Source: Bacteroidota bacterium | GTDB taxonomy: Bacteria > Bacteroidota > Bacteroidia > M30B66 | Length of the DNA: 64,000 bases | Direction: 5' to 3' | NCBI GenBank assembly: GCA_027483445.1 | Contig: JAIXUS010000052.1 | Span: 1-64,000 of the forward strand | Shown: piece after piece, positions 36,935 through 37,988 of the stretch | How positions within the stretch are numbered: the first letter of the stretch is position 1 | Layout of the letters: each line of letters starts with the position of its first letter | Program-made: the position numbers and the translations under genes | Notes under the pieces: model-generated | Database searches by the model: none | The model's input: only the letters and a program-made list of their open reading frames with translations | Told to the model about the DNA's origin: nothing

Positions 36935-37885
36935 ATGATTGCATCCAGAGACGGAGTCGTTAAAATCGGTGTATTTTACGACGGGAACTACTTCCTTCAC
37001 GTGAGTAACTACTACAATTACTTTCACTCAAGAAGAAGAAGAATCAGCATCGCAGGTTTACACAATTTCATTCGTGAAAAAGTAGCCGAAGAAATGGCAG
37101 TAGAATATAAACTTTGCCATGTTGTAGATGCCCACTATTTCCGCGGAAGAATGAGCGCTTATGAAGCCTCTCAGCGTGGAAATCAACTGTACAATGATCG
37201 TTTATTCGACGATGTTTTAATGTCGGAAGGCGTAGTAACTCACTATCTTCCATTGCGCAACCGCGGAAATCGTAAAGAAGAAAAAGGCATTGATGTTTGG
37301 CTCGCCCTCGAAGCCCTCGAATTGGCCTGGCTGAAGCATTACGATGTGTTGGTTTTAATTACTGCGGATGGCGATTTCGTTCCTTTGATACGTAAAGTGA
37401 ATACCCTTGGTACCCGTGTTATGGTACTCAGTTGGGATTTCGAGTACACCGACGATACAGGGCGCGAAATTATTACCCGTACCTCGCAGGATTTGCTCGA
37501 GGAGGTAACTTACCCGATTGCCATGCATGAGCTCATCGACAATCGTGTAACCGGCAAAGACTCTCAGGTTTCGCAATTGTTTGTAACTCAGGAAAGTGCT
37601 CCGAAGACCTACAAGAATATCGTAGATAAAGGAGAAGTGAAAATCTCCAAAACCCTCAATATGAAGAGTGGTTATGGATTCGTAGCATATCCGCCGAACA
37701 ACCTCTTCTTCCACTATTTAGATGTTGTAGAAGGCGATTTCAACGAAATCAAAGACGGTGATGCTGTTGAGTTTACCATTGAAATCAACGATAAAGGCAA
37801 CGAAGTCGCTAAAAACGTTCGAAAAGTAAACGAATCTGAACTTAACTTCATCGAAGAAGAGCTCGACGATTACAACAACGGGTAA
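36935..37885 (+). CDS. NYN-domain RNase fused to a cold-shock domain
   Basis: 316 residues. Residues 8-190 are a NYN/PIN-like (LabA/DUF88) nuclease fold. Its acidic site is Asp16 in VFYDGNYF, Asp120 in KGIDVWLALEAL, and Asp145/Asp147 in ITADGDFVPLI. After a ~35-residue linker, residues 233-297 form a cold-shock/OB domain: GEVKISKTLNMKSGYGFVAY (RNP1-like GYGFV) and NNLFFHYLDVV (RNP2-like), ending AKNVRKV. The C-terminus is acidic (EEELDDYNNG). Expected role: RNA binding by the CSD and cleavage or processing by the NYN core. Monocistronic with its own promoter and terminator. Confidence 0.88.
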   Translation: MIASRDGVVKIGVFYDGNYFLHVSNYYNYFHSRRRRISIAGLHNFIREKVAEEMAVEYKLCHVVDAHYFRGRMSAYEASQRGNQLYNDRLFDDVLMSEGVVTHYLPLRNRGNRKEEKGIDVWLALEALELAWLKHYDVLVLITADGDFVPLIRKVNTLGTRVMVLSWDFEYTDDTGREIITRTSQDLLEEVTYPIAMHELIDNRVTGKDSQVSQLFVTQESAPKTYKNIVDKGEVKISKTLNMKSGYGFVAYPPNNLFFHYLDVVEGDFNEIKDGDAVEFTIEINDKGNEVAKNVRKVNESELNFIEEELDDYNNG

Positions 37886-37957
37886 TTGTCAATCAAGGCC
37901 TTGGTGGTGATTTCAACTTTGAATCAGCACTAAAGCCATTAATAAATCAAAGTGTCG

Positions 37958-37988
37958 GGAGCATCCTCATCGGGTGCTCCTTTTTTTG
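37958..37988 (+). terminator. Terminator of the NYN-CSD gene
   Basis: Hairpin GGAGCATCC / GGGTGCTCC and T7, 73 nt after the stop. Confidence 0.9.

Follow-up and report, generated by a model that had tools for sequence, protein, structure and literature searches.

A predicted NYN endoribonuclease with a C-terminal cold-shock domain in Bacteroidota

What is the biological function of a bacterial protein that joins an NYN nuclease to a cold-shock domain (CSD)? The question is raised by an open reading frame of a Bacteroidota bacterium (positions 36935-37885, forward strand, as are all features located below by window coordinates) that starts with ATG and encodes 316 amino acids plus a stop codon. 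It lies in the window, the whole 64,000-nucleotide stretch of contig JAIXUS010000052.1 that was analyzed. The initial annotation read it as a fusion of an NYN nuclease with a complete CSD carrying RNP1- and RNP2-like motifs and predicted that it acts on RNA. Profiles, fold and conserved residues back this reading, and neither of the two results that the initial annotation named as contrary to it, a C-terminal region failing the CSD profile or a lack of conservation at the nuclease residues, was obtained. The NYN, or LK-nuclease (DUF88-type), domain spans residues 10-167 in Pfam (PF01936; 36962-37435) at E 7.5e-17, scoring 62.6 bits against a curated cut-off of 24.2, and the CSD spans residues 239-297 (PF00313; 37649-37825) at E 2.7e-11, with 43.6 bits against a cut-off of 27. 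Both domains were matched in 41 of 41 diverse orthologs that share 50-88% identity with the window protein, and no OST-HTH profile was found by Pfam in the window protein or in these orthologs. The NYN family TIGR00288 shares local similarity around the KGxD and DGD motifs; membership was rejected given a score of 28.1 bits, far under the curated cut-off of 178.45.

The AlphaFold2 model of the protein (41 sequences; mean pLDDT 84.5) assigns to the N-terminal half the PIN-like fold seen in both 2qip and MARF1. Residues 3-217 of the model match VPA0982 (2qip) with a Z score of 17.7 over 160 aligned residues, so that the NYN fold reaches beyond the profile match, to about residue 205-217, and the NYN domain of MARF1 is matched with Z scores of 15.1 (5yaa) and 14.8 (6fdl). 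The active aspartates of these nucleases are D14/D92/D115 in VPA0982, D358/D426/D452 in MARF1 and D13/D118/D143 in the NYN protein of B. fragilis (PMC11346440). Judged by position, D16, D120 and D145 of the window protein correspond to them and are predicted to be catalytic: the Asp16 codon (36980-36982) takes the place of D13 and D358, the Asp120 codon in the KGID motif (37292-37294) that of D118 and D426, and the first codon of Asp145-Gly-Asp147 (37367-37375) that of D143 and D452. The triad is spaced by 104 and 25 residues, against 105 and 25 in the B. fragilis protein, in a positional comparison in which side chains were not superimposed. In a full-length alignment of 81 orthologs, D16, D120, D145, E126 and E129 are invariant. 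The fourth acidic residue, D147, is aspartate in 77, asparagine in three and glutamate in one; thus, the four acidic residues that the initial annotation called intact are present in the window protein, but the fourth is not strictly kept in the family. The 80 ortholog loci were collected with peptide patterns that sample the NYN domain as well as the CSD of the window protein, which biases this set toward full-length relatives. Two relatives of the nuclease half have been tested. The B. fragilis NYN protein cleaves single-stranded RNA non-specifically in a Mn2+-dependent manner and loses its activity with the D13A substitution (PMC11346440), and the MARF1 NYN domain is an endoribonuclease on single-stranded RNA (PMC6294520). 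Given the triad, the fold and these two relatives, the window protein is predicted to be catalytically competent, and catalysis by its NYN domain is well supported as a prediction.

The C-terminal half of the model (residues 228-305) matches cold-shock domains with Z scores of about 9-11, among them Unr, Bacillus CspB and the CspB-RNA and YB-1-RNA complexes. Its RNP1-like motif, SGYGF(V/I), occupies residues 245-250 (SGYGFV in the window protein), and its RNP2-like motif, NLFFH, residues 256-260. G246, G248, F249, N256, L257 and F259 are 98-100% conserved in the ortholog alignment, and H260 is 91% conserved. The conserved RNP residues together with the fold suggest that the CSD serves as an RNA grip. 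The two domains are joined by a variable linker (residues about 205-235; 37547-37639) in which model confidence is low at residues 223-230. Against five relatives of its own family, dN is 0.06-0.11 across the NYN domain and 0.03-0.10 across the CSD. The corresponding dS values are about 2.5 or saturated, and the linker and the tail evolve faster than either domain. Low dN and saturated dS in both domains exclude chance, and these codon comparisons indicate that the gene is under strong purifying selection in its NYN and CSD parts alike. In its CSD region (37649-37825), the family profile also gives a weak match to a ribosome hibernation promoting factor, over the C-terminal part of that structure (9t0z_9), which hints at a CSD/OB-like domain there.

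The gene is chromosomal and apparently forms a single-gene unit. It is preceded by TGT, an LptF/LptG-family permease gene and a tRNA-Leu gene, from which it is separated by an intergenic region of its own, and it is followed by a convergent CoA-transferase gene. A terminator-like hairpin of ten pairs, six of them GC, with a subsequent T-run (37957-37981) is predicted to end the unit, as a call from a consensus scan and not a functional proof. Neighbors are common to members of one lineage only, and no adjacent gene recurs across lineages among open reading frames of at least 80 amino acids; a conserved operon partner was thus rejected in favor of lineage-specific synteny. The 400 bases upstream contain no conserved leader or regulatory RNA in an own-family alignment, and a scan for sigma-70-type promoters, a consensus from which Bacteroidota promoters differ, gave no match.

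The window protein is the sole NYN match in its genome, which also carries two short separate CSD proteins and one gene that combines a PIN domain with two CSDs. The product of the latter, a PIN_8-CSD-CSD protein of 472 amino acids (locus L136 8883-17937; G000:C86:68882-77936), gives this genome another nuclease of the PIN superfamily with cold-shock domains attached. Its gene follows DrmA- and DrmB-like DISARM genes and an unknown gene on the same strand. The architecture is rare: one further genome of 296 gave a match, to the PIN part.

How widely is the fusion distributed? The NYN-CSD protein is present in ten of ten genomes searched from the window's order and is patchy outside it. Whole-protein searches, which did recover NYN-only relatives, gave strong matches (E < 1e-50) in about 47 of 396 genomes of the class and about 22 of 392 of the phylum, by hand count in samples that overlap. 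Carriers, by their names or labels, include Perlabentimonas, Lentimicrobium, Saprospiraceae, Siphonobacter (S. aquaeclarae), Thermoflexibacter (T. ruber), Ignavibacteria and Kapaibacteria; the Lentimicrobium, Ignavibacteria and Kapaibacteria orthologs come from metagenome-assembled genomes (MAGs). Such gaps in the distribution beyond some families speak against a role that is both universal and essential. The gene was also seen on contigs labeled as Microcoleus (L081), Sporomusaceae (L088) and Bradyrhizobiaceae (L079) MAGs. In the NYN tree, the first two group among Bacteroidota and the third with Ignavibacteria and Kapaibacteria, and all three are probably mislabeled bins or transfers. One genome (G042) encodes two full NYN-CSD paralogs (L134 and L135), and one NYN relative (L012/L133; G032:C147) has an in-frame stop after 40 codons and is likely a broken gene or a sequencing error. 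The phage and plasmid records searched contain no NYN-CSD match. One IMG/VR contig (IMGVR_UViG_3300027412_000039; L122 1459-3921) carries an NYN-CSD gene directly after a tyrosine integrase gene, possibly through capture by a mobile element or as the bacterial edge of a prophage.

Relatives that consist of the nuclease part alone also exist. In genome G183 (locus L138 9394-17575; G183:C2), a 205-residue NYN-only protein, L131, belongs to a type III-B CRISPR operon. Its gene is followed by DHH/NrN-like, CorA-like and Cas6-like genes, which were read from motifs and gene order with no NCBIfam match for the three, and then by Cas10/Cmr2 (E 8e-33) and Cmr3 (E 7e-11). This gene set is that described for the SAM-AMP type III-B system of B. 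fragilis (PMC11346440). L131 aligns with the window family in HHalign over residues 4-173 with 37% identity, an E-value of 9.6e-36 and a probability of 99.9. NYN-only proteins were also found in genomes G204 and G233, with no Cas genes recognized in the surrounding stretches that were read, and the protein of genome G167 has a degenerate OB-like tail where a typical CSD would be. The variation at D147 and these few NYN-only relatives indicate that nucleases of the wider family can do without a CSD. In the NYN tree, three proteins without a CSD branch at the base of the CSD-bearing set or lie outside it; because the tree is rooted on two of these proteins and their branches are long, the order among the NYN-only relatives is unsure and the tree supports no statement on the direction of change. 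Membership of the window protein among the CRISPR-associated NYN nucleases was rejected, given the permease, tRNA-Leu and CoA-transferase flanks, the lack of a type III-B operon (Cas6, CorA, NrN) and the absence of Cmr2 from its genome. A PDB match to a "CSD domain-containing protein Cmr6" (9arw) raised the question of a separate CSD gene in the CRISPR locus of G183; tblastn of L138 and L143 found none.

Thus, we propose that the window protein is probably a metal-dependent endonuclease of single-stranded RNA that is tethered to RNA by its CSD and serves as a stand-alone enzyme of RNA turnover or processing. The NYN domain would cut single-stranded RNA through the Asp16/Asp120/Asp145 triad in a metal-dependent manner, with Mn2+ as the probable metal. 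The CSD, held on a flexible linker, would bind single-stranded RNA through the aromatic face of RNP1 and RNP2 and feed or anchor unstructured RNA to the NYN active site. The protein would work alone from the chromosome, outside any operon, toxin pair or CRISPR locus. Given the lineage-wide conservation, the solitary gene and the absence from phage and plasmid records, we infer that its physiological task is RNA turnover, in bulk or under stress. Alternatively, DNA could be the ligand of the CSD, or the domain could act in localization only. If the protein is active, RNA decay in this phylum, which has received little study, would include a dedicated general endoribonuclease that brings its own RNA-binding domain, and a conserved unnamed gene of many Bacteroidota genomes would gain a functional meaning. 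A broader scenario is offered tentatively and is rather doubtful: the fusion may represent an undescribed lineage-core family of RNA decay endonucleases in Bacteroidota, Ignavibacteria and Kapaibacteria, from whose nuclease lineage the type III-B CRISPR NYN protein of Bacteroides was recruited, with the CSD lost or lacking, so that the RNA-gripping domain would separate general turnover from crRNA trimming.

Could the CSD instead mark a cold-acclimation factor, a stress- or cold-specific RNase that rids the cell of stalled or structured mRNAs in the cold? The intact RNP motifs are compatible with such a role. However, the upstream region, including the 5' untranslated region, is unconserved within the family, the genome already encodes two separate small CSD proteins, and orthologs occur in Thermoflexibacter, Kapaibacteria and Ignavibacteria. 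CSDs are moreover common in proteins unrelated to cold, such as Unr. Apart from the name of its domain, the protein shows no tie to cold shock, and we regard such a role as unlikely; the assignment to the RNA chaperone class in the initial annotation accordingly describes the CSD fold only.

A role in defense, as an antiviral effector or a crRNA-trimming nuclease like the CSD-less type III-B relatives, is suggested by the alignment with L131 next to Cas10/Cmr2 and Cmr3, by weak PADLOC matches to HEC-09 and LabA-like NYN, and by the integrase-adjoining gene of the single IMG/VR contig. These hints are set against a genome that lacks Cmr2, a gene with no conserved neighbors, its absence from all phage and plasmid records searched and its presence in every genome of the order, unlike patchy defense genes, all of which make a defense RNase very unlikely. 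Equally improbable is an mRNA endonuclease linked to the ribosome in the manner of Rae1/YacP of B. subtilis, which the CSD would place on mRNA or on the ribosome. Rae1 is indeed an NYN-family, ribosome-dependent mRNA nuclease (PMC11346440), and the family profile weakly matches the hibernation promoting factor chain with its linker and CSD part (9t0z, E 0.0011), but that weak match is confined to the OB-type region and the fold match is to the DUF88/LK and MARF1 NYN domains.

NYN-CSD is an uncharacterized family across Bacteroidota, and a search of the literature on NYN and cold-shock domains, with subscription papers mostly outside its coverage, found no study of the two-domain fusion. The view of the initial annotation that the function of such fusions is not established therefore stands for the fusion as far as the searched papers go, but its nuclease half has a biochemically characterized relative in the same phylum (PMC11346440), and as early as 2010 nucleases of this class were described in combination with S1/CSD-type OB folds (PMC2848206). 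A close parallel is the type III-B NYN ribonuclease of B. fragilis (Chi and White 2024, PMC11346440), which shares the nuclease class, the phylum and a near-identical triad spacing (13/118/143 versus 16/120/145). The homolog in a comparable operon, L131, is CRISPR-located and lacks a CSD, whereas the window protein carries a CSD and is not CRISPR-linked; this homology permits a direct comparison of the same nuclease with and without a CSD. Anantharaman and colleagues described LK-nuclease (DUF88) domains with OST-HTH in bacteria, some of them fused to S1/cold-shock-type OB folds (2010, PMC2848206). With these proteins and with VPA0982 (2qip), the window protein has in common the nuclease fold and the general idea of a nuclease combined with an RNA-binding OB fold, but it has a simple two-domain NYN-CSD layout instead of the OST-HTH architecture. 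MARF1 resembles it in the NYN fold (Z about 15) and, by position, in the catalytic aspartates; unlike the window protein, with which it shares 14% sequence identity, MARF1 is eukaryotic and binds RNA via RRM and LOTUS domains. The cold-shock proteins, including CspA, CspB and the CSDs of Unr, share the CSD profile, the fold and the RNP1 and RNP2 motifs, but they are free small chaperones, whereas the CSD of the window protein is the appendage of a predicted nuclease.
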